DNA of 29,328 nt from a virus. The notes beneath the pieces were generated by a model. It was not told the DNA's origin and did no database searches. It was given only the letters and a program-made list of their open reading frames with translations. The stretch lies in the IMG/VR virus record IMGVR_UViG_3300043444_000093, positions 1-29,328 of that record; one strand, 5' to 3'. Numbering within the stretch: the stretch's first letter is position 1; the number at the start of each line of letters is the position of its first letter. The position numbers and the translations under genes are program-made. Below, piece by piece: positions 1-29,175 of the stretch.

Positions 1-200
1 GGGGTGGTTGCTTTGTAGAACTTTTGTGGGAGCCTCTTAAGTACACAAAAAAGAGGAATTAAGAAAAGACTAAATAGAACTAAAAAGTCTAATAAAATCA
101 AAGAAGTTAACTAATTAATTGGGGACAGGTTAGATCATGGGAGATAATCTGTTAGCGAAAGCGTACACAGGAGGGCTTGCATAGACCCCTTGAGGTCTAG

Positions 201-220
201 GAAGTGGACACAAGAGGTCT
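201..220 (+). repeat. Iteron-like motif, copy 1
   Basis: The sequence GAAGTGGACACAAGAGGTCT is the reference copy. Its core TGGACACAAGAGGT (205-218) recurs exactly at 426-439. The 12-mer GACACAAGAGGT recurs at 580-591 over the start of the small terminase gene. An 18 of 20 match lies at 1001-1020 inside the large terminase gene. A second overlapping repeat, GAGGTCTA-N-GAAGT, occurs at 192-205 and 214-227, which is a 22-base period. Confidence 0.6.
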
Positions 221-286
221 ATGAAGTAAGGAATTAGAGTGTAGACTCTAAAGATAGAAGACAATACAAATAAATACAAATAATGC

Positions 287-314
287 TTGACATCTTAGAA
301 AAGTACAGTATAAT
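287..314 (+). promoter_or_regulatory. Consensus sigma70-type promoter before terminase genes
   Basis: A perfect -35 TTGACA (287-292), a 16-base spacer and a perfect -10 TATAAT (309-314) predict a start near 321. That gives a leader of about 257 bases before the first gene at 578. This is the strongest promoter match in the window. Confidence 0.85.
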
Positions 315-321
315 TCTCTAT

Positions 322-335
322 GAAGGTAATCCTTC
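322..335 (+). other. Hairpin at the predicted 5' end of the leader
   Basis: GAAGG (322-326) and CCTTC (331-335) form a 5-bp stem with a TAAT loop, right at the predicted transcription start. A 5'-terminal stem-loop can stabilise an mRNA; that role is inferred. Confidence 0.4.
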
Positions 336-352
336 CAAGAACTCAAATGAAG

Positions 353-375
353 ACTAAGTAGACAGGCTACTTAGT
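353..375 (+). other. Perfect 9-bp hairpin in the terminase leader
   Basis: ACTAAGTAG (353-361) pairs fully with CTACTTAGT (367-375) around a 5-base loop, about 30 bases into the predicted transcript. No U-run follows, so it is not a standard terminator. The right arm CTACTTA (367-373) can instead pair with TAAGTAG at 439-445, so two exclusive folds are possible. Confidence 0.55.
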
Positions 376-425
376 TAATACAGGAAGTTTCTAAGTGAGT
401 TACTTCTTTGTCTAGCTTCCTAAGT

Positions 426-439
426 TGGACACAAGAGGT
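426..439 (+). repeat. Iteron-like motif, copy 2
   Basis: This is an exact 14-base repeat of 205-218. It lies in the transcribed leader of the terminase genes. The bases just after it (TAAGTAG, 439-445) could also pair with the right arm of the hairpin at 353-375. Confidence 0.6.
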
Positions 440-577
440 AAGTAGTAGTTAATACAATAATTAATATACTTCATTTAGATTCTTGCTTTAATGTTAAATG
501 CCATAGTATCTCTAGAGTACTCATAGTAGTGGGTATCCCTATTGTTATTTATTCTATCATCTCCTCAAAGGACAAAG

Positions 578-982
578 ATGACACAAGAGGTTACAGAGCT
601 GAAGGTTAGAGGACGAGGTAGGCCCAAGAAGGGTGAGATAGTAGCTAAGAAATCCAAGAACAGAGGTACCTTAGGTCGTCCTAAGGGAGACAAGGCTATT
701 ATCGACGAGTACAAAGCTAGGATGCTTAACTCACCTAAGTCAGCCAAAGTCTTAGAGACTATCCTCAATGCTGCCTTGAATGATGACCATAAGAACCAAG
801 CAGCAGCGTGGAAGCTAGTCGTAGATAGGATAATGCCAGTCAGTGCTTTCGAACAAACAAAACAAGGATCTGGTACTCCTTCTATTAGCATTAATATCAC
901 TGGGCTTACTCAAGCTAGTACTGTTATTGAGCAAGACGATGTCGAAGTTGACATCCAAGACGTAGAGTCCAAGTATGACTAG
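578..982 (+). CDS. Putative terminase small subunit (AT-hook-like DNA-binding protein)
   Basis: The role is assigned mainly from context: this 134-aa protein lies directly before the large terminase and overlaps it by 8 bases. It is strongly basic at the N-terminus, with two AT-hook-like cores, RGRGRPKKG (residues 11-19) and LGRPKG (32-37). The C-terminus is acidic. The middle (about residues 50-85) reads as a helical region. Small terminases bind the packaging site and hand DNA to the large subunit. The start was chosen at 578 because AAAGGA lies at 568-573, just upstream; an in-frame TTG at 542 has no such site. It could instead be a general DNA-binding protein. The protein family is not recognised from sequence alone. 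Confidence 0.65.
   Translation: MTQEVTELKVRGRGRPKKGEIVAKKSKNRGTLGRPKGDKAIIDEYKARMLNSPKSAKVLETILNAALNDDHKNQAAAWKLVVDRIMPVSAFEQTKQGSGTPSISINITGLTQASTVIEQDDVEVDIQDVESKYD
580..591 (+). repeat. Iteron-like motif, copy 3, at a start codon
   Basis: GACACAAGAGGT is shared with copies 1 and 2. Here the first G is the last base of the ATG of the small terminase candidate, so the motif also encodes the protein's N-terminus. Confidence 0.45.
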
Positions 983-2234
983 CCTTAACTTTGAGCTACT
1001 GAAGTGGCAACAAGAGGTCTTCAAGGACACTCATCGCTTCAAGGTCGTAGCTGCTGGACGTCGTTGTGGTAAGTCTAGGCTCTCAGCTGTGACCTTGCTC
1101 ATAGAGGCTCTAAACTGTCCTGAAGGGTCAGCTGTGATGTACATAGCTCCTACCCTAGGACAAGCTAGAACTATTATGTGGGACTTGTTGAATGATCTTG
1201 GTCGTCCTGTTATTAAGTCTTCCCACGTTAATAACCTTGAGATTACCCTTGTCAACGGTAGGAAGATTCTCGTTAGAGGTGCTGATAACCCTGATTCTCT
1301 ACGGGGTGTGTCTCTCACCTACGTAGTGCTAGACGAGTGCGCCTTTATCAAAGAAGACACATGGCAAAAGATCATTCGAGCTTCCTTGTCTGACAAAAAA
1401 GGTAGAGCACTGTTTATCAGTACCCCTAGTGGACGTAACTGGTTCTACGATGTCTTCAACCTAGGACAAGAAGGCAAAGACGAGGAGTGGCAGAGCTGGC
1501 ACTTCACAACCAAGGATAACGAGACTATCGACCCTAAGGAAATTGAAGCTGCTGAGAGGACTCTAAGCTCCTTTGCCTTCAAACAGGAGTATCTCTCCAG
1601 TTTTGATACAGCTGGTTCTGACTTGTTCAAAGAAGAATGGCTGAAGTACGAAGAGGAGCCTGACTACGGTGAGTACGTCATAGCTATCGACTTAGCTGGT
1701 TTCGAGGATGTAGCTAAGAACGCAGGGGCTGCTAAGAAGAGACTAGATGAGTCAGCTATCACTATCTGTAAGATCTTAGACAACGGTGATTGGTGGGTTA
1801 AGGACATCATCCACGGACGATGGGACATCAAAGAGACTGCTCTGAAGATCCTCTTAGCTGTCAAGGAACACAGACCTATCTCCGTAGGTATCGAAAGAGG
1901 TGCTCTAAAGAATGCTGTGATGCACTACCTCGAAGACTTGATGAGAAAGAACAATGTCTACTGTCACATCCAAGACCTAACTCATGGGAACAAAAAGAAG
2001 GTAGATAGGGTTGTCTGGGCATTACAAGGTCGCTTTGAACACGGTCGTATCACCTTGAATGAGGACGGTAACTGGAAAGAGTTTCAAGACCAGTACATCA
2101 TGTTCCCTGCCACAGGTGTTCACGATGACTTGATTGACTCTCTAGCTTACGTGGATCAGTTAGCTGTCACCTCTTACCAGCAAGACTACGAGGAAGATGA
2201 TTGGGAACCACTTGACTCAGTGTCAGGATTTTAA
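975..2234 (+). CDS. terL: Terminase large subunit
   Basis: This is the motor ATPase and nuclease that cuts the concatemer and pumps DNA into the prohead through the portal. The 419-aa length is normal for the family. Visible motifs are Walker A AGRRCGKS (27-34), Walker B VVLDE (117-121), the coupling motif STPSG (149-153), and an RNase H-like nuclease domain starting at AIDLAG with D239 and ending in HDDLIDSLAY near residue 390. All key residues are present, so it should be active. ATG 975 overlaps the end of the preceding gene; no strong ribosome site is seen, so translational coupling is likely. The iteron-like copy at 1001-1020 lies inside this gene. Confidence 0.95.
   Translation: MTSLNFELLKWQQEVFKDTHRFKVVAAGRRCGKSRLSAVTLLIEALNCPEGSAVMYIAPTLGQARTIMWDLLNDLGRPVIKSSHVNNLEITLVNGRKILVRGADNPDSLRGVSLTYVVLDECAFIKEDTWQKIIRASLSDKKGRALFISTPSGRNWFYDVFNLGQEGKDEEWQSWHFTTKDNETIDPKEIEAAERTLSSFAFKQEYLSSFDTAGSDLFKEEWLKYEEEPDYGEYVIAIDLAGFEDVAKNAGAAKKRLDESAITICKILDNGDWWVKDIIHGRWDIKETALKILLAVKEHRPISVGIERGALKNAVMHYLEDLMRKNNVYCHIQDLTHGNKKKVDRVVWALQGRFEHGRITLNEDGNWKEFQDQYIMFPATGVHDDLIDSLAYVDQLAVTSYQQDYEEDDWEPLDSVSGF
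1001..1020 (+). repeat. Iteron-like motif, copy 4, inside the large terminase gene
   Basis: It matches 18 of 20 bases of copy 1; only AC is swapped to CA at the eighth and ninth positions. It encodes the segment KWQQEV near the terminase N-terminus, so protein constraint could explain part of the match. Confidence 0.4.
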
Positions 2235-21122: not shown

Positions 21123-21307
21123 ACTTCATCCTTTACATCTACTACGTGGGGAACTGAGCGCACAGTAGGGAATTTATCCTTAAAGGCTTCAATGGTCATA
21201 TCCATACCGAGGTGAACCTCAACAAAGTCAACCCCTTCCGAGGCCAACTTCGTCTTCAGTTGCACACACGCTGGACAGTTTGGTTTAGAATATAAAATTG
21301 TTTTCAT
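21116..21307 (-). CDS. Glutaredoxin-like protein
   Basis: The 63-aa protein is a minimal thioredoxin-fold redox protein with active site C11-P-A-C14 and the typical cis-proline segment SVPHVV near residue 53. It probably returns electrons to the C-terminal cysteine pair of the class II ribonucleotide reductase encoded 540 bases upstream. It is shorter than free glutaredoxins (about 80-85 aa), ending soon after the cis-Pro region, so the C-terminal helix is reduced. Its ATG overlaps the stop of the HNH gene (ATGA), which now separates it from the reductase. Confidence 0.85.
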   Translation of the reverse strand: MKTILYSKPNCPACVQLKTKLASEGVDFVEVHLGMDMTIEAFKDKFPTVRSVPHVVDVKDEVW

Positions 21308-21762
21308 GGTGTGTAAAAAGTATGTAATTCTTGTTTTGCTTTAAGATAAGCAGCATATGCTTCTTCCTCTGTTTTAAAATATCCTAGATGTGTTACTTTT
21401 CCATCCTTTTGAATCCGTGAACAATATAATTTTGAAGCTTTATGCCAATAAGCTCCTTTAAGATTGTTTCTGTTTTGAGCGTTTTCTTTGACAGATACTT
21501 CACGCAAATTGTCAATTCTATTATTTGCTTTGTTTCTATCAATATGGTCTAAATGACCTACAGGGAAAGCGCCATATACATAAGCCCATGCAAGGCGATG
21601 CGCTAATACTTTCTTTCCTTGAATGTTTAATCTCACATATCCTTGAGGTGTTATCTGACCAGCTACAGTCCCTTTGCATTGATTTTTTACGGTTTCGTTC
21701 CATTTAAAAACCCCTGTTTTTGTACAGTAGGAAAGACGTTCTTTAAGTTGTTCAATATCCAT
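21304..21762 (-). CDS. HNH homing-type endonuclease with AP2-like domain
   Basis: The 152-aa protein has an N-terminal recognition part, an HNH nuclease core (LAHRLAWAYVYG with H55; HLDHIDRNKANNRIDNLREV with D72, H73 and N81) and a C-terminal AP2-like DNA-binding region (GAYWHKASKLYCSRIQKDGK, about 102-145). This is the standard layout of free-standing phage HNH homing endonucleases. It has its own ribosome site (AAAGGA) and its own promoter (21784-21812). It lies between the reductase and glutaredoxin genes, consistent with insertion of a selfish gene into the reductase operon. Confidence 0.88.
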   Translation of the reverse strand: MDIEQLKERLSYCTKTGVFKWNETVKNQCKGTVAGQITPQGYVRLNIQGKKVLAHRLAWAYVYGAFPVGHLDHIDRNKANNRIDNLREVSVKENAQNRNNLKGAYWHKASKLYCSRIQKDGKVTHLGYFKTEEEAYAAYLKAKQELHTFYTP

Positions 21763-21783
21763 TGATTTCCTTTCAAAACATCA

Positions 21784-21812
21784 ATCCTACCATAGCGAGG
21801 TACTTTTGTCAA
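21784..21812 (-). promoter_or_regulatory. Sigma70-type promoter for the HNH gene
   Basis: On the - strand, TTGACA (21807-21812) is followed by a 17-base spacer and TAGGAT (21784-21789), preceded by TGG, an extended -10 element. It lies in the 88-base gap between reductase and HNH genes and would drive HNH, glutaredoxin and the 50-aa gene. Confidence 0.65.
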
Positions 21813-21850
21813 GAACTTTGTATACTTATTTTGTGTATACGATCTTCATA

Positions 21851-23758
21851 TTAGATCTCACAACCACCCGCAGTACATGAAAGGGTCTGAGCACCTTCCA
21901 CGTTATCAGTGACTTCCTTCATGTTTTCCCAATCAATAGATGTAGGCATTGCCACAAGGAGCGAATCATACGTTGCTTCGTCGATAGCCTCATAGGGAGC
22001 CTGTCGATACGTACCGCCATCCATAGGCAAATACGATACGCCAGTGATCTCATCGAAGTTCTCCCATGTCCAAGCTCCTACTTTAGGCCACTCATTCTCA
22101 TTGACTGAGATTGTAACAGATGGTTTATGTTCACACCAGTGGCGCTGGAATGTCAACCACAAGTCCAAGTGCTCAATAGCGTTCAAGTCCTCACGCAGAC
22201 GAGCACCTTCAGGTGTCTTCATAGGGAAGGAGAAGACAACAGTTGACTCAGGTTTCATCACACAAGGCTCCCAAGGGAATCCAGAGTCCTTCAAGAAAGA
22301 AGTAAGCGGATCTTTGGCGTCAGAGCGTACACGACGAATGAAATAAGAACTATGTTGAGGATGAATGCCGCTAGCAGTACCAGTGAGTTGACTAACAGTT
22401 CCCTCAGGCTTGACACACGTGATCGCAGCAGAAGGATTGATGCCCAATTCAGCAGCAAGATGCTTATTAGTATCCACAGCGACATTCTTCAACTCCTCTA
22501 ATCGTGCTGGCAGGTCTTTGTCGTAGGCGTTGTTGAGCAACGTATTGTCCAAGATACCTGTCATGGAGACACCCAACAAACGTTCTTCCTCTGTATTAGT
22601 CTGCCACACCTTACGAAGGTACGGGAAGCTAGTCAAGGTCGATTGGAAGGTTCCCAAGATTGTCGCAATAGTGACTTTTTCTTTAAGAGACTCCAATGTA
22701 TCCCCCGCACGAACAATAACTGAGCTGAGGTTGCAAAATTGGTAAGGGCGGAGAATGATTTCAGAACAAGGGTTAGTGCCCCATTCTTTACCGAGTACAC
22801 GGCGACCATTCTTAGATGCTTGAATTTCCGAAGCATAGCGGTTAAAGATTCCACGTTCACCTGAGTGACTTTCATAAATGTTGCTCCATTCACGCATAAA
22901 CTGACCTACGTCAGGCTTGACATCGTACACTGCTGAGTTGTTAGCCAAGGCTCGTTGACCGTTACCGTCCCACCAGTTACCTGCTTTAGCGTGAGCCATA
23001 CGATCATCATCCAAGTCAGACAGAGAGATCATAGCTGATCGACGAACTCCACCGACAACCACAACTTCTCCAATCTTACAGAGAATATCATGAGCTTCAA
23101 TCGAGAAGAGCTTGCGGCCTTGGGCAGTTTTAAACTTAGTGACCACGTACTTAAAGAGTTCGACCAACGGCTCTGGGCCACTCGCACGTCCCCCGAACGT
23201 CTTGAGGCGTGTGCCAGCAGGACGCACAGAAGAGACATCCCACTTAGGGACTTCTCCAGCCCATAGGAGTGCCATGACCTGTCGTAGCGCCTTTGCCCAT
23301 CCTTCTTTGGAGTCTTTAACGTGAACCACAGTATTAGACTCGTAAAGCTTCTCAGGAATTTCAGGTAAACGGTTGACATACTTACGCTCCACAGAGAAAC
23401 CTACACCTGTACCACACAGGAGGATGTACATAGCCTCATCGAAGGCTTTAGGGTCATCAATAGGTAGGAAAGAACAGTTATAACCAGCCACGTTCTGACG
23501 TTCCAAGGCATCACCAGCGGTCATCAAAGAGCGCATAGAGGGCATAACGTCTAGATTCAATACAGCATCTTCAAGACGTGTACGAAGCTCAGGTGTCAAG
23601 GTGTAGCTATGTTTGTCACTTAGGTGACTCTCCATGAAGTCAAAGTAACGTGATACTGTCTCATTCCAGTGTTCACGACGACCTTTATCGTCCAAGTAAC
23701 GTGAATAACGGCTCTTGGCTATATAAGTTTGAAAAGGATTCATTTCAGTGTGCTTCAT
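21851..23758 (-). CDS. nrdJ: Class II (adenosylcobalamin-dependent) ribonucleotide reductase
   Basis: The enzyme converts ribonucleotides to deoxyribonucleotides, feeding phage DNA synthesis with or without oxygen, using coenzyme B12 taken from the host. At 635 aa it resembles the monomeric type (Lactobacillus leichmannii form, about 740 aa). Visible are the first active-site Cys in GYNCSFLP (C95), NPCSEI with radical C331 and E333, C342 in QFCNLSS, the substrate loop region KPEGTVSQLTG, and the C-terminal redox pair in SCTAGGCEI. All catalytic residues are present. It overlaps the GIY-YIG gene upstream by 14 bases and has only a weak ribosome site, so coupling is likely. Confidence 0.93.
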   Translation of the reverse strand: MKHTEMNPFQTYIAKSRYSRYLDDKGRREHWNETVSRYFDFMESHLSDKHSYTLTPELRTRLEDAVLNLDVMPSMRSLMTAGDALERQNVAGYNCSFLPIDDPKAFDEAMYILLCGTGVGFSVERKYVNRLPEIPEKLYESNTVVHVKDSKEGWAKALRQVMALLWAGEVPKWDVSSVRPAGTRLKTFGGRASGPEPLVELFKYVVTKFKTAQGRKLFSIEAHDILCKIGEVVVVGGVRRSAMISLSDLDDDRMAHAKAGNWWDGNGQRALANNSAVYDVKPDVGQFMREWSNIYESHSGERGIFNRYASEIQASKNGRRVLGKEWGTNPCSEIILRPYQFCNLSSVIVRAGDTLESLKEKVTIATILGTFQSTLTSFPYLRKVWQTNTEEERLLGVSMTGILDNTLLNNAYDKDLPARLEELKNVAVDTNKHLAAELGINPSAAITCVKPEGTVSQLTGTASGIHPQHSSYFIRRVRSDAKDPLTSFLKDSGFPWEPCVMKPESTVVFSFPMKTPEGARLREDLNAIEHLDLWLTFQRHWCEHKPSVTISVNENEWPKVGAWTWENFDEITGVSYLPMDGGTYRQAPYEAIDEATYDSLLVAMPTSIDWENMKEVTDNVEGAQTLSCTAGGCEI

Positions 23759-24188
23759 TTTTTACCATTCGTTTAAAAGTCATGTGATTTTTTCCCTCTG
23801 CTCCCATCAAATGAGAGATACGAGTGTATCCGTAACTCATCTTGTGTAAATTTTTAGCAAACTCTTCCAGCTCTTTTGTCCAAGTGCGTCCTCGATTCCA
23901 ATGATTAGGATTACCTAACTCGTTAAACCTAGGACGTTCTGTCTTGATTACTACGGACTCTAAGTCCAAAGCTTCTTGCTTTGTAAGCCTGTTGTGCTCA
24001 ATACGGACAATGTCTGCTAGTGTGTAGCCTTCTTCGTAAAGCTCCTCAAGCCATGCAACATGAGCTTCTTTACGTTGGTTTCTACGAGTACACCAAGCCC
24101 TATCATATTGCCCAATTCCAATATAAGGTCTAGAGTTATCCCTAGGGTCTATATGGGAATAAACATAGAAGGTCTTTTTGCTATCCAT
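23745..24188 (-). CDS. GIY-YIG endonuclease
   Basis: The 147-aa protein has an N-terminal GIY-YIG-type core: FYVYSHIDP, then PYIGIGQYDRAW, an Arg-rich helix, and the catalytic Glu in EALDLESVVIK, followed by FNELGNPNHW. The C-terminal part (MSYGYTRISHLMGAEGKNHM) reads as a small helix-turn-helix DNA-binding element. Such free-standing enzymes are homing endonucleases. It sits directly upstream of the reductase gene and overlaps its start, so with the HNH gene the reductase is flanked by two mobile nucleases. A promoter candidate lies at 24216-24244. Confidence 0.85.
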   Translation of the reverse strand: MDSKKTFYVYSHIDPRDNSRPYIGIGQYDRAWCTRRNQRKEAHVAWLEELYEEGYTLADIVRIEHNRLTKQEALDLESVVIKTERPRFNELGNPNHWNRGRTWTKELEEFAKNLHKMSYGYTRISHLMGAEGKNHMTFKRMVKNEAH

Positions 24189-24215
24189 CTTTACACTTTC
24201 TTGAAGAGGGCACGT

Positions 24216-24244
24216 ATCTTAATATGCTTCGATCATCTTGTCAA
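24216..24244 (-). promoter_or_regulatory. Sigma70-type promoter before GIY-YIG and reductase genes
   Basis: On the - strand, TTGACA (24239-24244), a 17-base spacer and TAAGAT (24216-24221, 4 of 6) overlap the end of the DUF3310 gene. The predicted start is near 24209, about 20 bases before the GIY-YIG ATG. Confidence 0.5.
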
Positions 24245-24581
24245 GATACCAACGAGCCTTTTTGAGGTCTTCTACACCATTTTTGTCCATGAAGCGCATT
24301 AAGTACTGCATAAGTTGTACATAGTCTGAAGTAAAAAGATTACTTTTAGGTGTAGGGTAGTTATTTTCTAGTTTATCTACTAGTTTTTCAATGACATCAC
24401 GAACTTCAATGCCTTCCTTCTCAAAGAGCATGTAATGCTTTGGTTTACTAATTATATCGTAACTAGCAGTACCGTTTAAGCTTGCCTCAGGGAAGACACC
24501 TTTAGGCAGCACAGGAGAACCCATATTGTACCCTGCCATATACTCCTCAATTTCCTTGATTGTCGGCTTGCTTGTTGCCAT
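24219..24581 (-). CDS. DUF3310 family protein
   Basis: The 120-aa protein carries the DUF3310 pattern: PKHYMLFEKEGIEVRDVIEK and then QLMQYLMRFMDKNGVEDLKK, ARWYLDKMIEAY. The family is common in phage replication regions and sometimes named nucleotide kinase-like, but its function is unproven. The start at 24581 (MATSKPTIKEIEEY) was chosen because GGAGA lies just upstream; a longer TTG start at 24623 lacks one. The gene begins inside the metallophosphoesterase gene (35-base overlap). Confidence 0.85.
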   Translation of the reverse strand: MATSKPTIKEIEEYMAGYNMGSPVLPKGVFPEASLNGTASYDIISKPKHYMLFEKEGIEVRDVIEKLVDKLENNYPTPKSNLFTSDYVQLMQYLMRFMDKNGVEDLKKARWYLDKMIEAY

Positions 24582-25332
24582 ACTTTCTCTCCAAGTATTC
24601 GATTGATAAGAACATCTCGTCAAAGTGTCCGTCTTCTACCTCATTCATGACCAGTAAGCCTCGCCAATGACGGTTACTTAGCTGATCCATATAGTCTTCG
24701 TCGTGAAGATAATAAGAGCCAGCCACAATAGCGCAAATAGGCTTTCCATCAGCACGTTTTCCATAGGCGATTTGTTTACCTTGCTGATGACCGGCGACAC
24801 AAGACATATGAAGCTTACTAATGATAGCGGCAGGAGAAGCAGCTGGGCGTCCCATGGCGCCAACAGGCCAGTAGTGGTTGAAACCCACACCATTAATAAA
24901 AACAGGATGTAAGAATTCATGTACTTCCCAATCTTTCAAGTTAAGGTCATCATAGGTCAGTAGCCCTTCGAGCATAGGATTGTTGTTAACAGCCCTTGTG
25001 AGTCGATTCTCATGGTTGCCCTTCAAGAACACCATACGAGGCTTGTAGACCTTCTGTTTGTTCTCTTTCTGACTCTTTTGGAGTGCGTGTAGAGGGTTTA
25101 GTAAGGTCAACATACCTGTGTTACCAGCTGCTACGTCAGCGAGATAGCGTTTACCTTCGAAGTACTTGCTACCTGCTTTGTCGTGGCTTGAGAGACTAGG
25201 GAAGTCCCAATGATCGCCTAAGTGAACTACGACATCAGGACGGTACTCACAGATTGCTTTCCCTGCCCATGTTAGATGCTCCTGAGCTGCCTCAGGTTTG
25301 CACTGTGTGTCTGGTATGCACAGGATCCTCAT
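24547..25332 (-). CDS. Metallophosphoesterase
   Basis: The 261-aa protein is a calcineurin-like phosphoesterase with the two-metal motifs in order: PDTQ (D8), GDHWDF (D40), GNHE (N106, H107, E108) and AGHQQGK near 180, with a later His region expected. Phages often encode this type next to replication genes. Substrates may be nucleotides, a nucleic acid end or a signalling molecule; the sequence does not decide. It starts in the stop of the previous gene (ATGA), so translation is coupled. Confidence 0.85.
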   Translation of the reverse strand: MRILCIPDTQCKPEAAQEHLTWAGKAICEYRPDVVVHLGDHWDFPSLSSHDKAGSKYFEGKRYLADVAAGNTGMLTLLNPLHALQKSQKENKQKVYKPRMVFLKGNHENRLTRAVNNNPMLEGLLTYDDLNLKDWEVHEFLHPVFINGVGFNHYWPVGAMGRPAASPAAIISKLHMSCVAGHQQGKQIAYGKRADGKPICAIVAGSYYLHDEDYMDQLSNRHWRGLLVMNEVEDGHFDEMFLSIEYLERKYGNKQADNQGN

Positions 25333-25766
25333 GCGAAGAGATCCTTAGTTGGCTCACCGAACATCTGTGATTCATAGACCTCAGGATGAGCTAAGAGGAG
25401 TTGCTGTAACAGATTGTCATTCAAGCATCGTCCGTAGCCTGCAAAGGGCTTACCAGTGCGTTCATTAATCTCATTCAAAGGATATTCAACTGAGTAGTAC
25501 ACTTGCTCTTTGATGTCGTATCCGTAATGAAGACTCATGACATCTAAGATCTGATCCAAGACCTCCATCCAAGTACCTTCATGTGGTTCAAGGAGTGTCG
25601 TGTGCTTTACAGGGAAGTACTCACCATCGCTAGTGAACGCAGGTGTGTAGATCTCAAAACCCCAGTAACCATCTTCGTAATCAAGGACATCATCGCTGTT
25701 ATTGTCTACGAATGTAGTTGGTTTAGTCCATAAGGACATGAAATGTGCTTTCAAAGTTTCAAACAT
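25329..25766 (-). CDS. Hypothetical protein, 145 aa (two possible in-frame starts)
   Basis: I do not recognise this family. It is acidic, with many aromatic residues (DYEDGYWGFEIYTPAF, DVMSLHYGYDIKEQVYYSVE) and a C-terminal helix-rich part. ATG 25766 has an excellent AAGGAG site six bases upstream. An in-frame ATG at 25823 also has a GGAG site and would add 19 residues (MTLNEYFHLIVNKQQKELT). Both could be used, giving long and short forms. The 3' end overlaps the metallophosphoesterase start. Confidence 0.7.
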   Translation of the reverse strand: MFETLKAHFMSLWTKPTTFVDNNSDDVLDYEDGYWGFEIYTPAFTSDGEYFPVKHTTLLEPHEGTWMEVLDQILDVMSLHYGYDIKEQVYYSVEYPLNEINERTGKPFAGYGRCLNDNLLQQLLLAHPEVYESQMFGEPTKDLFA

Positions 25767-25812
25767 AGTTAACTCCTTCTGTTGTTTGTTTACAATCAAG
25801 TGGAAATACTCG

Positions 25813-26016
25813 TTAAGTGTCATAGAACTCTCCGTCCATAGGATGATACACGACATAAGCAGTCTCAAAGATTCCGTTACCGTAGTCCTTAACAACTGGA
25901 GATGTCTCTATCATTCTACACCCTAATCGAGGATGATCTATGACGTACACTTTGTACCCCTTAGTCCAATCAGGGATGAACATGGGAGGCTTATAGTGAA
26001 CTATCAACTTCGCCAT
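25813..26016 (-). CDS. Hypothetical protein, 67 aa
   Basis: This small protein is unknown to me. It begins MAKLIVHYKPPMFIPDWTKG and is mostly beta-like with a Tyr/Val-rich end (FETAYVVYHPMDGEFYDT). ATG 26016 was chosen because GGGGAGAA lies just before it; the longer TTG start at 26037 has none. It begins inside the 55-aa gene and its stop overlaps the longer start of the next gene, typical of this compact operon. Confidence 0.65.
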   Translation of the reverse strand: MAKLIVHYKPPMFIPDWTKGYKVYVIDHPRLGCRMIETSPVVKDYGNGIFETAYVVYHPMDGEFYDT

Positions 26017-26158
26017 GATACTTCTCCCCTTCTTCAATGCCTTGTTTCAAGGCTGTGATGATACCTAAGTGCAGAAGAGCTAGGCGTTCCTCATCGCTCA
26101 TATCGAACGTGTAAGTAGCGCTACCGTCTTCGTGCTCCTTAACCAATTTTAGATCCAT
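25991..26158 (-). CDS. Small hypothetical protein, 55 aa
   Basis: This frame encodes MDLKLVKEHEDGSATYTFDM, then SDEERLALLHLGIITALKQG and an acidic end. The pattern (a beta hairpin, then DMSDEER and a helix) is one I have seen in small phage proteins of unknown function. It overlaps endonuclease I upstream by 20 bases and the 67-aa gene downstream by 26 bases, filling what would otherwise be a gap. Without it about 120 bases would be unexplained. Confidence 0.7.
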   Translation of the reverse strand: MDLKLVKEHEDGSATYTFDMSDEERLALLHLGIITALKQGIEEGEKYHGEVDSSL

Positions 26159-26594
26159 CTAGCACCCTCTTTCTTCGTTCCTTAATCCAGTCGTCAGGAA
26201 TCATTTTATCAGCGTACATGAAACCGTTTTTAACACACCACTGAGCATACGTTGTATATGAACCCTTGTTTAGCTTTTGTTTGCTATTAGAGAATACGAA
26301 ACGTATATCCAAGTGTGGTTGTTGTCTCTTAATGAGCATGTGTTTCTTACGGTCAGCGATCAGGAAGCGTCCCTTAGTCTCTACGATGATTCCATTATCG
26401 AGTACAAAGTCAGGAGTATATTGATGTTCACTCGCTGGCTTGATGTACTTGATCTTAGTCTCTTCGTATGTAAAAGGAACACCTGCCTCTGTGAGAGCTT
26501 TAGCGACATCTTCCTCTAAGCCGCTACGCCACCCGTGCTTCATTGCGTTAGCTCGTTTAGAGCTTGTTGTCTTACGAGTTACCATCACGTACAT
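26139..26594 (-). CDS. Endonuclease I, Holliday-junction resolvase (T7 gp3-like)
   Basis: The 151-aa enzyme cuts branched DNA so that replication intermediates can be packaged; in T7 it also degrades host DNA. Active-site residues line up with T7 (E20, E35, D55, E65, K67) at a constant offset of about 7-10: E27 in SGLEED, E44/E45 in YEET, D62 in YTPDF, E72 and K74 in IVETKG. The length matches T7 (149 aa). The start may be ATG 26594 or ATG 26585 (MVTRKTTSS); the latter is three codons later and gives a similar protein. It overlaps the Lar-like gene. Confidence 0.9.
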   Translation of the reverse strand: MYVMVTRKTTSSKRANAMKHGWRSGLEEDVAKALTEAGVPFTYEETKIKYIKPASEHQYTPDFVLDNGIIVETKGRFLIADRKKHMLIKRQQPHLDIRFVFSNSKQKLNKGSYTTYAQWCVKNGFMYADKMIPDDWIKERRKRVLDGSKIG

Positions 26595-26772
26595 TCCATT
26601 GTTTTACTGCTTCCTCATGCCATTTACCTTCATCAGGATATTCTCGCCTTGTTTCACCTGCGGATGCACCACAACTGTTACAACACGCAATTCCCCATCT
26701 GTAGGTATCTCCGTCATAAAAAGATAGTCCTTCAGCCTTACCACAAAAAGGACAAGGTTTAGCCTCAATCAC
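26572..26772 (-). CDS. Lar-like zinc-finger protein
   Basis: The 66-aa protein resembles the restriction alleviation protein Lar family: CPFCG (C7, C10), a WGIACCNSCGASA segment (C31, C34) and a conserved C-terminal EEAVKQWNVR. Family founder Lar of the Rac prophage modulates type I restriction; many phage homologues are untested. It starts with GTG overlapping the TGA of the upstream peptidase (GTGA), with AAGGA just before, so it is coupled to that gene. A role against host restriction is plausible, not shown. Confidence 0.8.
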   Translation of the reverse strand: MIEAKPCPFCGKAEGLSFYDGDTYRWGIACCNSCGASAGETRREYPDEGKWHEEAVKQWNVRDGNS

Positions 26773-27053
26773 AACTTAGTCCTTTCATACTGATGTAGAA
26801 GAGCACCGAAGGCATCTACGAAGACCTCATCGTGGTTAGTATGTCCCATAGCGAACATAATAGCGTGGACGAGTTCATGGAAGAATGTTTGTTCGGTGAA
26901 GTTCTTGTTCATACCTGTTCGTAAGTAGATAACCTGAGTAGCACAGTCACACTTACCGTACTCGCTCAAGTCCTCTACGTACTTGACTGTCCACTGACAC
27001 CCAACGAGGTAGAAACTAGAGGGCACGTTTGGTTTGGTGTTCTTCGAAGCCAT
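26769..27053 (-). CDS. Small HExxH metallopeptidase-like protein
   Basis: The 94-aa protein contains FFHELVHAIMFAMGH, giving zinc ligands H59 and H63 and catalytic E60, with a possible third ligand E76 in HDEVFVD. The fold pattern (beta strands with YLRTGMNKNFTEQTF, then the HELVH helix) fits small phage ImmA- or SprT-like putative peptidases. There is no signal peptide, so it acts in the cytoplasm. It starts inside the exonuclease gene (79-base overlap) without a clear ribosome site. Substrate unknown; a host regulator or defence protein is one possibility. Confidence 0.75.
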   Translation of the reverse strand: MASKNTKPNVPSSFYLVGCQWTVKYVEDLSEYGKCDCATQVIYLRTGMNKNFTEQTFFHELVHAIMFAMGHTNHDEVFVDAFGALLHQYERTKL

Positions 27054-27703
27054 AGCAACATCAAGTTTTCATCGACACGAAGTTGATTACCATCGTAAGC
27101 TTTGAGACAAGCGTCATAGTATTCCTTTTCAGTTTTACAATCCTTTAAAAGCTTCTCAGCCTTCTTAGGCCCTATGCCCTTCAAGCCAATGATGTTGTCA
27201 ATACGATCCCCTGTGAGCACCTGAGTGAATAAGTTACGAAGACCTTGCTCCTCAGTAACGTAGTATTCCTCGTGCTTCACGAAGTTGTAATGCCAACCAG
27301 CGACTTGATCTAGGTCTTTGTCAATGGAGACAATCCATCCACCTGTCTTAGTTGCCTCGATAGCCACTGCATCGTCTGCCTCTTGACCCTCTACCAGTTC
27401 TGCCCCTAGGCGCTGGAGATGGTGTCTGATAGCTTCGTAATGCTGTGGTTTCTTAGCATCTTTCCTGTTCCCTTTGTAAGGCTCAGTGACTGCTATCTCA
27501 TTGCGAAAGTTACCACGACCTGTGATGTAAGCTTTGTAGTCATCACACTTCAAATCATCGAACACAATCTCATGAACTAACTGAGTCACACGAGCCAAAC
27601 AAGTAGCCTCCTCAACGTCTTCACTAGCGAAACCTACTCGGTAGCAAATGATGTCAGCGTCGAGGATAGCTAACTTAGGACGTTCCTTAGAGGGCGTCGT
27701 CAT
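26975..27703 (-). CDS. 5'-3' exonuclease (FEN-like)
   Basis: This 242-aa PIN/FEN-type nuclease probably removes RNA primers and supplies nucleotides, like T7 gp6. Metal-binding residues are visible: LDAD (D15, D17), EADD (108-111), SIDKDLDQ (D128, D130) and TGDRIDN (D166, D169). The helix-hairpin-helix motif GLKGIGPKKAEKLL (173-186) follows. The last 25 residues (PNQTCPLVSTSLGVSGQ) look unlike the family and coincide with the overlapping peptidase gene. Its start overlaps the end of the SSB gene by 17 bases. Confidence 0.88.
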   Translation of the reverse strand: MTTPSKERPKLAILDADIICYRVGFASEDVEEATCLARVTQLVHEIVFDDLKCDDYKAYITGRGNFRNEIAVTEPYKGNRKDAKKPQHYEAIRHHLQRLGAELVEGQEADDAVAIEATKTGGWIVSIDKDLDQVAGWHYNFVKHEEYYVTEEQGLRNLFTQVLTGDRIDNIIGLKGIGPKKAEKLLKDCKTEKEYYDACLKAYDGNQLRVDENLMLLWLRRTPNQTCPLVSTSLGVSGQSST

Positions 27704-28103
27704 CAGCCGTTGCTGGTTCAGGCACGTAAGTCTTGACTTCAGTGACCATGATTGTCTTCAGCGATGGAGCATTACCGTGTTTAGCTGACATACGGTGTGT
27801 ATACGAACCTACGATAGCTACGCACTTAGAGCCGTTACCGAGAGCTTCGATAGGAACTTCTTGGAGTTTATCGTCAGTAGGTTTAAACAAGTACTTGCTC
27901 TTAGCTACGATGAAGTTACCCATTGAATCCTTGTGCTTGACTTTGATACCCAAGCTTGTGAGCTTCGCTGCATCGTCATCGGAGATGTTACCGATGGTGC
28001 ATTCGTAGCGATCATTGTCCGTGTTGAATGCTTTGTTGAACTCTGCCATCCACTTTGACCAGAACAACTCACCGTTAATTTTTACTGCTTTCAAATCTGA
28101 CAT
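27687..28103 (-). CDS. ssb: Single-stranded DNA-binding protein (T7 gp2.5-like)
   Basis: The 138-aa protein reads as one OB fold (LFWSKWMAEFNKAFN, YECTIGNISDDDAAKL, VAKSKYLFKP, SKCVAIVGSY) and ends in an acidic tail, ATADDDAL. Such a tail is how phage SSBs contact the polymerase and helicase. It is shorter than T7 gp2.5 (232 aa) but in the range of related phages. A purine-rich site (AAGGAAAAGAAAG) precedes the ATG. Position between the polymerase and exonuclease supports the call. Confidence 0.8.
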   Translation of the reverse strand: MSDLKAVKINGELFWSKWMAEFNKAFNTDNDRYECTIGNISDDDAAKLTSLGIKVKHKDSMGNFIVAKSKYLFKPTDDKLQEVPIEALGNGSKCVAIVGSYTHRMSAKHGNAPSLKTIMVTEVKTYVPEPATADDDAL

Positions 28104-28159
28104 ACTTTCTTTTCCTTTTCTAGGATTGGGCTTTCGCCTGTTACGTGCAACATCGCACT

Positions 28160-28354
28160 TTATTGTAGATAGCTACCCTCTTTGCGGGAGAGAGCCTCTG
28201 CTTCATTCTCAATGTAGTCAAGGGCTGCTGAGAGCACCAAGTATACATCGAGAATATCCATGTCGTCAGAGTGGAGAATCATAAATGTTTCATCACTTAT
28301 GTTCAGCATGATCTGACTTTTAATCTTGTCTGTTTTATCAATCAAAATGTACAC
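28160..28354 (-). CDS. Small acidic hypothetical protein, about 64 aa
   Basis: I do not recognise it. The sequence is acidic (DETFMILHSDDMDILDVYLV, then ALDYIENEAEALSRKEG) with a helical C-terminus. The start is uncertain: GTG 28354 overlaps the end of the upstream gene and lacks a strong ribosome site; TTG 28345 and ATG 28309 are alternatives. The frame fills the gap between the PP-loop protein and SSB, which supports it being real. Confidence 0.5.
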   Translation of the reverse strand: MYILIDKTDKIKSQIMLNISDETFMILHSDDMDILDVYLVLSAALDYIENEAEALSRKEGSYLQ

Positions 28355-29175
28355 TCACAAGGTTTATCTACGTTTTCATCTTCGTAGGTTGAGATAATCT
28401 TACGAACACGAGCGAAGAAAGTTCTAGCGTCTTCATGTTCACTTGCTTCAATACCTGCTTCTTTCATTTTGTAGAATTGTAACTCAAGATCCTCAAGATA
28501 GTCATTACGCATGATCGAATAACCAATCTTTTCCTCAGCTGCCTTAGCCTTCTCCCAGATGTCAGGACGAGTGCAATAGACAATGTACCAATGCTGCTTA
28601 CCTGCCTTCAAACAACCTGTGCAGTTAGCATGTTTAAAGCTAGTGTAAGCCAATGGACGTTCAATACCTACTTCCTTGGTCGTAGTGTACTTCAGTTCAG
28701 GCCAGAGAGCTAAAGGATAGTCTGATTTGTATCCTTGTCCTGCCAAGATAGAAGCTCTGCGTTGAACACGGTGCATCTCATTCTTGTCAAAACCGTAGTA
28801 AATCACACAGTTCTTATCGTCAAAGTTAGCTTTGAGATAATCGTTGAATGGTTTGGTCTTCAGTAACGATGTACAGATCGCCATGCCTGTAGCCCCTTTG
28901 AAGGATTTGGTATTGACGCTCACATCGAACTGATCCATTGTTTCCCACTTAGGATGGTTAGCATACGTGATTGGTAATCCTAAGTAGTCAGCTACTTCGT
29001 TCTTAAAACGCTTGATGTCCTCATGTTCCACGAATGGATTGATGTCATGATTGAGAAGAATAACATTCTTTGGGCCATACTTAGCCACTACGTTTAAAGC
29101 AACCACAGCACTGCTATGACCACCTGAGTAACACACAATGTGAGTCACTGGTTTAAATAGTTCAAGTTGTGTCAA
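28342..29175 (-). CDS. PP-loop ATPase, PAPS reductase-like
   Basis: The 277-aa protein has the PP-loop YSGGHSSA (16-23) of the adenine-nucleotide alpha hydrolase superfamily, as in PAPS reductases and sulfurtransferase-type ligases, then LLNHDINPFVEHEDIKRF. Several cysteine pairs (NCTGCLKAG, and C-terminal CECTF) suggest an iron-sulfur or zinc site. Phage members of this family are common in replication regions but their substrate is unproven; nucleic-acid thiolation or modification is an open option. The start codon is TTG at 29175, overlapping the polymerase stop (ATTGA), so it is probably coupled. Confidence 0.8.
   Translation of the reverse strand: MTQLELFKPVTHIVCYSGGHSSAVVALNVVAKYGPKNVILLNHDINPFVEHEDIKRFKNEVADYLGLPITYANHPKWETMDQFDVSVNTKSFKGATGMAICTSLLKTKPFNDYLKANFDDKNCVIYYGFDKNEMHRVQRRASILAGQGYKSDYPLALWPELKYTTTKEVGIERPLAYTSFKHANCTGCLKAGKQHWYIVYCTRPDIWEKAKAAEEKIGYSIMRNDYLEDLELQFYKMKEAGIEASEHEDARTFFARVRKIISTYEDENVDKPCECTF

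Follow-up and report, generated by a model that had tools for sequence, protein, structure and literature searches.

The similar-looking repeats clustered upstream of the terminase genes of this uncultured phage lineage are, judging from comparison with its relatives, not one packaging site: two copies (sites A and B) appear to be DNA sites, a third (site C) is part of a predicted folded RNA, and two others, within terS and terL, are most probably accidents of protein coding. As to the role of the conserved copies, we tentatively favour the reading that they mark a region which controls the late operon (packaging and structural genes), beside a likely replication origin. One compact region would then combine a likely late promoter, an undescribed leader RNA and, in the relatives, an origin-like cluster of DnaA boxes. 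How late genes are activated thereby becomes directly testable in phages of this kind, for which neither a phage RNA polymerase nor an antiterminator was recognised. The case also illustrates that repeats of similar appearance can be sorted, from comparative data, into those acting as DNA, one acting as RNA and those due to protein coding.

The window, i.e., the whole stretch of DNA analysed, is an entire IMG/VR record of 29,328 bases, class linear (Table 1). Its metabolic arm includes a ribonucleotide reductase gene and a phosphoadenosine phosphosulfate reductase-type gene, within 21851-23758 and 28342-29175 (- strand). Relatives were retrieved via TerL (80 contigs of uncultured phages from IMG/VR, with 79-99% identity in TerL), and ten contigs of 36-39 kb made up the near-complete genome set. 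The latter show the part that is absent from the record, namely the DNA polymerase, the primase-helicase and an early operon on the - strand, which diverges from terS across a gap of ~1.1 kb. The exact end overlaps of 121-127 bases, seen in six of these ten contigs, equal the assembler k-mer size, so the contigs look like circular assemblies with arbitrary cut points; since most of the end overlaps are of this size, genome ends in the form of direct terminal repeats were rejected. TerL, capsid and portal proteins reveal only distant kinship to named phages, and a blastn search of the region against named phages gave no matches.

Table 1. Predicted features of the window and the basis of their assignment.
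Feature	Position	Strand	Basis and remarks
Deeply conserved block GGGAGCCTCTTAAGTACACAAAAAAG (GGGAGCCTC..ACACAAAAAAG)	28..53	+	aligned in nearly all relatives, including divergent clades
Conserved block GGGGACAGGTTAG, upstream of site A	121..133	+	alignment; spacing to B 68-72, 80-83 or 93
Site A, TACACAGGAGG, probable DNA-level copy	164..174	+	kept as CACAGGAG, 41-45 (twice 55) bp upstream of B
Dyad CATAG..CTTGAG..CTAG beside site B	180..200		in relatives CATAG-CTCWTGAG-CTATG
Site B, GAAGTGGACACAAGAGGTCTATGAAGT, probable DNA-level copy	201..227	+	conserved; helically phased to promoter -35
Predicted sigma-70 late promoter TTGACA-16-TATAAT	287..314	+	12/12 consensus; conserved in relatives
Predicted structured leader RNA	317..486	+	covariation on 38 sequences; covariance model; not in Rfam
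Leader parts: 5' hairpin; outer stem; hairpin	322-335; 336-352/469-485; 354-374	+	
Inner leader hairpin, 3' arm = site C	400..441	+	arm-pair stability, fold
Site C, TGGACACAAGAGGT, in predicted leader RNA	426..439	+	spacing to -35 and B unphased
Small hairpin CATCTCC..GGACAAAGATG over terS ribosome site and start codon	558..580	+	24 distinct variants
terS, 134 aa, putative small terminase	578..982	+	synteny; overlaps terL; repeat copy 580-591
terL	975..2234	+	PHROG 2 and Terminase_6N; coding repeat copy 1001-1020 (WQQEVF)
Late genes: terS, terL, portal, capsid, tail, lysis	578-20844	+	
Metabolic arm, mostly nuclease and nucleotide-metabolism genes	21304-29175	-	

The first-pass annotation of this DNA had described a cluster of iteron-like repeats, and the copies it listed were found where it had placed them: TGGACACAAGAGGT occurs exactly at 205-218 and 426-439, directly upstream of terS, its 12-base part GACACAAGAGGT at 580-591, just within the start of terS (ATG at 578-580), a match of 18 of 20 bases at 1001-1020 in terL, and a 22-bp near-repeat at 192-205 and 214-227. 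The coordinates of a degenerate copy at 39-58 are also right; however, it belongs to a separate, deeply conserved block, which persists in genomes that have lost conservation of A, B and C and occurs twice in the upstream region of one relative (L247). One more copy, site A, had been overlooked. Three occurrences of the 11-mer in 1020 bp were reached in none of 500 dinucleotide shuffles, and the 14-base repeat by itself appeared in 7 of 500, which makes it moderately unlikely. Beyond these statistics, it is conservation that decides in favour of the repeats being real: related phages have the core again at roughly -810, -770 and -550 from terL. In the record, GACACAAGAGG with up to two mismatches was counted 16 times, the expectation being 8.9 +/- 2.7. 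The copies are not spread evenly through the near-complete genomes, and in eight of these ten the best match to the site profile lies in the early/late gap, on the + strand. In some divergent genomes the copies shift in step, B and C both reading CAAGGGGCTAT in L065 and TGAACACAAGAGG in L230, and A and C sharing CACTACGG in L253. Neutral repeats, common by descent and having no function of their own, would agree with the shuffle result for the 14-base repeat and with the absence of site C from some relatives; this reading, already disfavoured, is most improbable in view of the fixed-place conservation across relatives with 79-99% identity in TerL, the concerted shifts of type at A, B and C in divergent genomes, and the phasing and covariation described below.

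The copies inside the terminase genes are a different matter. The codons of the terL copy vary freely between synonyms (among 81 genes, Gln is CAA in 54 and CAG in 27, Phe is TTT in 42 and TTC in 39), so this copy was ruled out as a functional site and is best regarded as a coding accident. The terS copy, which encodes MTQEV, is present in only about five relatives, and this lack of conservation excludes it from the array, which in the ~80 IMG/VR relatives comprises sites A, B (with its dyad) and C, located in the intergenic gap from which the early and late operons diverge. The small hairpin over the terS start shows a compensatory swap from CATCT/AGATG to CATGT/ACATG in relatives. As for the product of terS, it gave no matches against PHROG and Pfam, and its predicted structure was poor, below use for a fold search; RGRPKK/GRPKG and a helical core are conserved in it.

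Sites A and B probably act at the DNA level. In the relatives B has the form AAGTGGACACAAGAGGTCTATGAAG and is preceded by the dyad, the halves of which co-vary weakly (41 of 5000 permutations were equally good). The arms flanking B showed no hairpin co-evolution (z=+0.3), and B as an RNA hairpin, or as a cruciform pairing with the motif, was rejected for lack of co-evolution. In four loci (L006, L049, L050 and L051) the distance of B from terL exceeds the usual one by 450-700 bp, perhaps owing to a gene inserted near terS. The distance from B to the -35 hexamer of the predicted promoter falls into clusters of 64-66, 72-75, 82-86, 90-95 or 104 bp, that is, a periodicity of ~10 bp (R=0.74, n=42); for the 16 distinct spacings such a concentration was matched in ~0.00015 of random draws, a value to be taken as indicative, since the relatives are not independent, which the use of distinct spacings limits. 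This would place B on the same helical face as the predicted promoter. For site C no phasing was seen, whether measured from -35 or from B (R<=0.28), and DNA looping between B and C was discarded on this ground. Given the constant helical phase between B and the promoter, control of transcription is at least as likely a role as packaging.

Directly after the predicted promoter, near +1, starts the leader, which we consider, from comparison of the relatives, to be a folded RNA not described before and expected to be transcribed from this promoter. The predicted fold of 318-480 is well below that of shuffled sequences (z=-4.8). Across 38 diverse sequences pairing extends to 89.8% of the cells (97-99% in the outer stem); the covariation score reaches 0.275, compared with 0.114 +/- 0.009 in shuffled and at most 0.126 in slid controls. 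Both counts are favoured by derivation of the structure from the same sequences. The outer stem occurs as CAAGAA/TTCTTG, CAGGAA/TTCCTG and GCAGAA/TTCTGC, and compensatory base changes in the leader exceed the controls, as in structured RNAs. The covariance model also located leaders outside its training set (L069, L072 and L076), and in nine of the ten near-complete genomes it pointed to one strong locus, upstream of terS; the tenth genome (G007/L059) has a different leader. The leader is present at most once per complete genome. The outer stem, used as a search pattern, matched 58 stretches in IMG/VR and nothing in GTDB genomes, hence no prophage or host copies of the leader were found there. 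None of the Rfam 15 covariance models matched the region (a single chance miRNA match, E 3.4, lay elsewhere), none of the titles listed by searches of open-licence papers fitted a terminase leader RNA, and the + strand of the leader contains no intrinsic terminator or attenuator. Site C pairs with a 5' arm of variable sequence, the native pairs reaching -631 kcal/mol vs -483 +/- 18 kcal/mol for permuted ones (0 of 5000), which suggests that C is constrained as RNA and B is not. In addition, the loop element ACRRG and a second ACRRG downstream are identical to each other in all 51 leaders that have both, the types being ACAGG, ACAAG or ACGGG depending on the genome (AG, GG or AA types); in the window the pair is ACAGG, at 362-366 and 380-384, and no partner was found for it.

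We suppose that these elements could work together in the following way. Sites A and B with the dyad would be double-stranded DNA recognition sites for a putative protein upstream of the late promoter, predicted to be a strong one; bound there on the helical face of the promoter, this protein would activate or repress transcription by sigma-70 polymerase, and the transcript would begin with the structured leader, ahead of terS. The leader, with site C in one arm of a hairpin, would probably act on the ~20 kb late operon, at the level of either elongation or expression, much as put RNA and other phage leader elements do; put RNA antiterminates with no protein factor. Control of the late operon is favoured by the phasing of B to the promoter and by the contrast between B, constrained as DNA, and C, constrained as RNA; it is further supported by the conserved consensus promoter, the covariation of the leader and its single locus per genome, as well as by A, B and C changing type together and by the divergent gene layout. 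Two observations count against it: no gene for a regulator or antiterminator was recognised in the early arm, and four relatives (L016, L045, L059 and L010) keep A, B and the promoter and have other leader sequences, without site C. Two of these (L059 and L010) carry an additional half copy of B ~44 bp downstream. In a more specific and rather doubtful version, one phage factor would read the same sequence twice, as double-stranded DNA at A and B and then as C in the nascent leader RNA (or in the template), load onto the transcription complex and switch on the late operon, the two ACRRG elements being further contacts. If true, late genes would be switched on by a novel type of mechanism, with need of neither a phage RNA polymerase nor a site within the promoter like that of the lambda Q regulator.

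The first-pass annotation had taken the repeats for a candidate packaging site, and part of this claim stands, as the copies are conserved in related phages and unevenly spread through near-complete genomes, two points on which the claim could have failed; treating them as one set does not, given the coding copies, the location of C in RNA and the promoter phasing of B. A packaging initiation site of the pac or cosB/cosN type would imply binding of the small terminase to A, B and perhaps C and cleavage by the large terminase in or close to the dyad, the promoter and leader being merely co-located. A, B and C lie 140-415 bp upstream of terS, where pac and cos sites are found, with a single array per genome, and the dyad is flanked by direct repeats at a fixed A-B spacing of ~44 bp. 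In phage SPP1 the direct repeats of pac span promoters and the start of terS (PMC4737164), and in lambda cosB the TerS sites lie beside cosN, in the cos region next to terS (PMC4669245); owing to these precedents a packaging role for A and B keeps substantial weight. The likeness to the pac of SPP1 and SF6 consists in direct repeats that extend across promoters and the start of the small terminase gene; in our case, however, a covarying leader RNA contains one of the copies, the remaining ones keep phase with -35 and the sequence is unrelated. For SPP1/SF6 it turned out that the repeats do not determine binding by the TerS DNA-binding domain (PMC4737164). With lambda cosB/cosN the region shares a short site in several copies, together with a dyad, next to terS, but here all copies have the same orientation, with no known IHF site or cohesive ends and no pile-up of contig ends. 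These ends are scattered, with no clustering at the array, and the assemblies look circular, with arbitrary cuts; moreover, the phasing reaches -35 and C behaves as RNA. On the whole we find packaging a serious though less likely explanation, and one that is compatible with late-operon control.

As to replication, we counted DnaA-box-like sequences in the relatives, in the 450 bp upstream of the G-run that corresponds to the left end of the window. There were 94 TTATNCACA boxes in 68 loci vs 1.8 expected from mononucleotide shuffles (~50-fold), with at least one box in 37 of the 68 loci, and the GC-skew minimum of the complete genomes is nearby. This suggests a DnaA-linked phage origin next to the array. 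The boxes are a feature of the relatives (8494-9030 in L042, for example), the equivalent stretch being outside the window, just left of position 1. It is conceivable that A and B are themselves origin elements, binding an initiator or accessory protein, and that the leader transcript opens or primes the origin; the boxes, the skew minimum and the divergent intergenic position speak for this. We consider it improbable: instead of an iteron array with several tandem initiator sites in helical register, there are two DNA-level copies ~44 bp apart and one in RNA, A and B differ from DnaA boxes, the GC skew also follows gene direction, and a search for a plasmid-type initiator found none.

Late-operon control, our preferred reading, has its closest counterparts in two other systems. 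The late genes of lambda are expressed from a single sigma-70 promoter; a leader precedes their very long operon, and the Q regulator binds DNA at this promoter, between the hexamers. The predicted promoter and leader before the late operon follow the same plan; in contrast to lambda, no Q homologue was recognised, and the sites are 64-104 bp upstream of -35. The put RNA of HK022 (putL), ~70 nt long with two stem-loops, immediately follows a phage sigma-70 promoter and opens a long operon (PMC9378689). The leader described here is likewise a structured RNA directly 3' of a (predicted) sigma-70 promoter and heads a long operon; nevertheless, it is ~170 nt long, has a long closing stem and precedes the late operon, whereas put belongs to the early one, and because of these differences in size and shape we do not class it as a put RNA despite the similar position.
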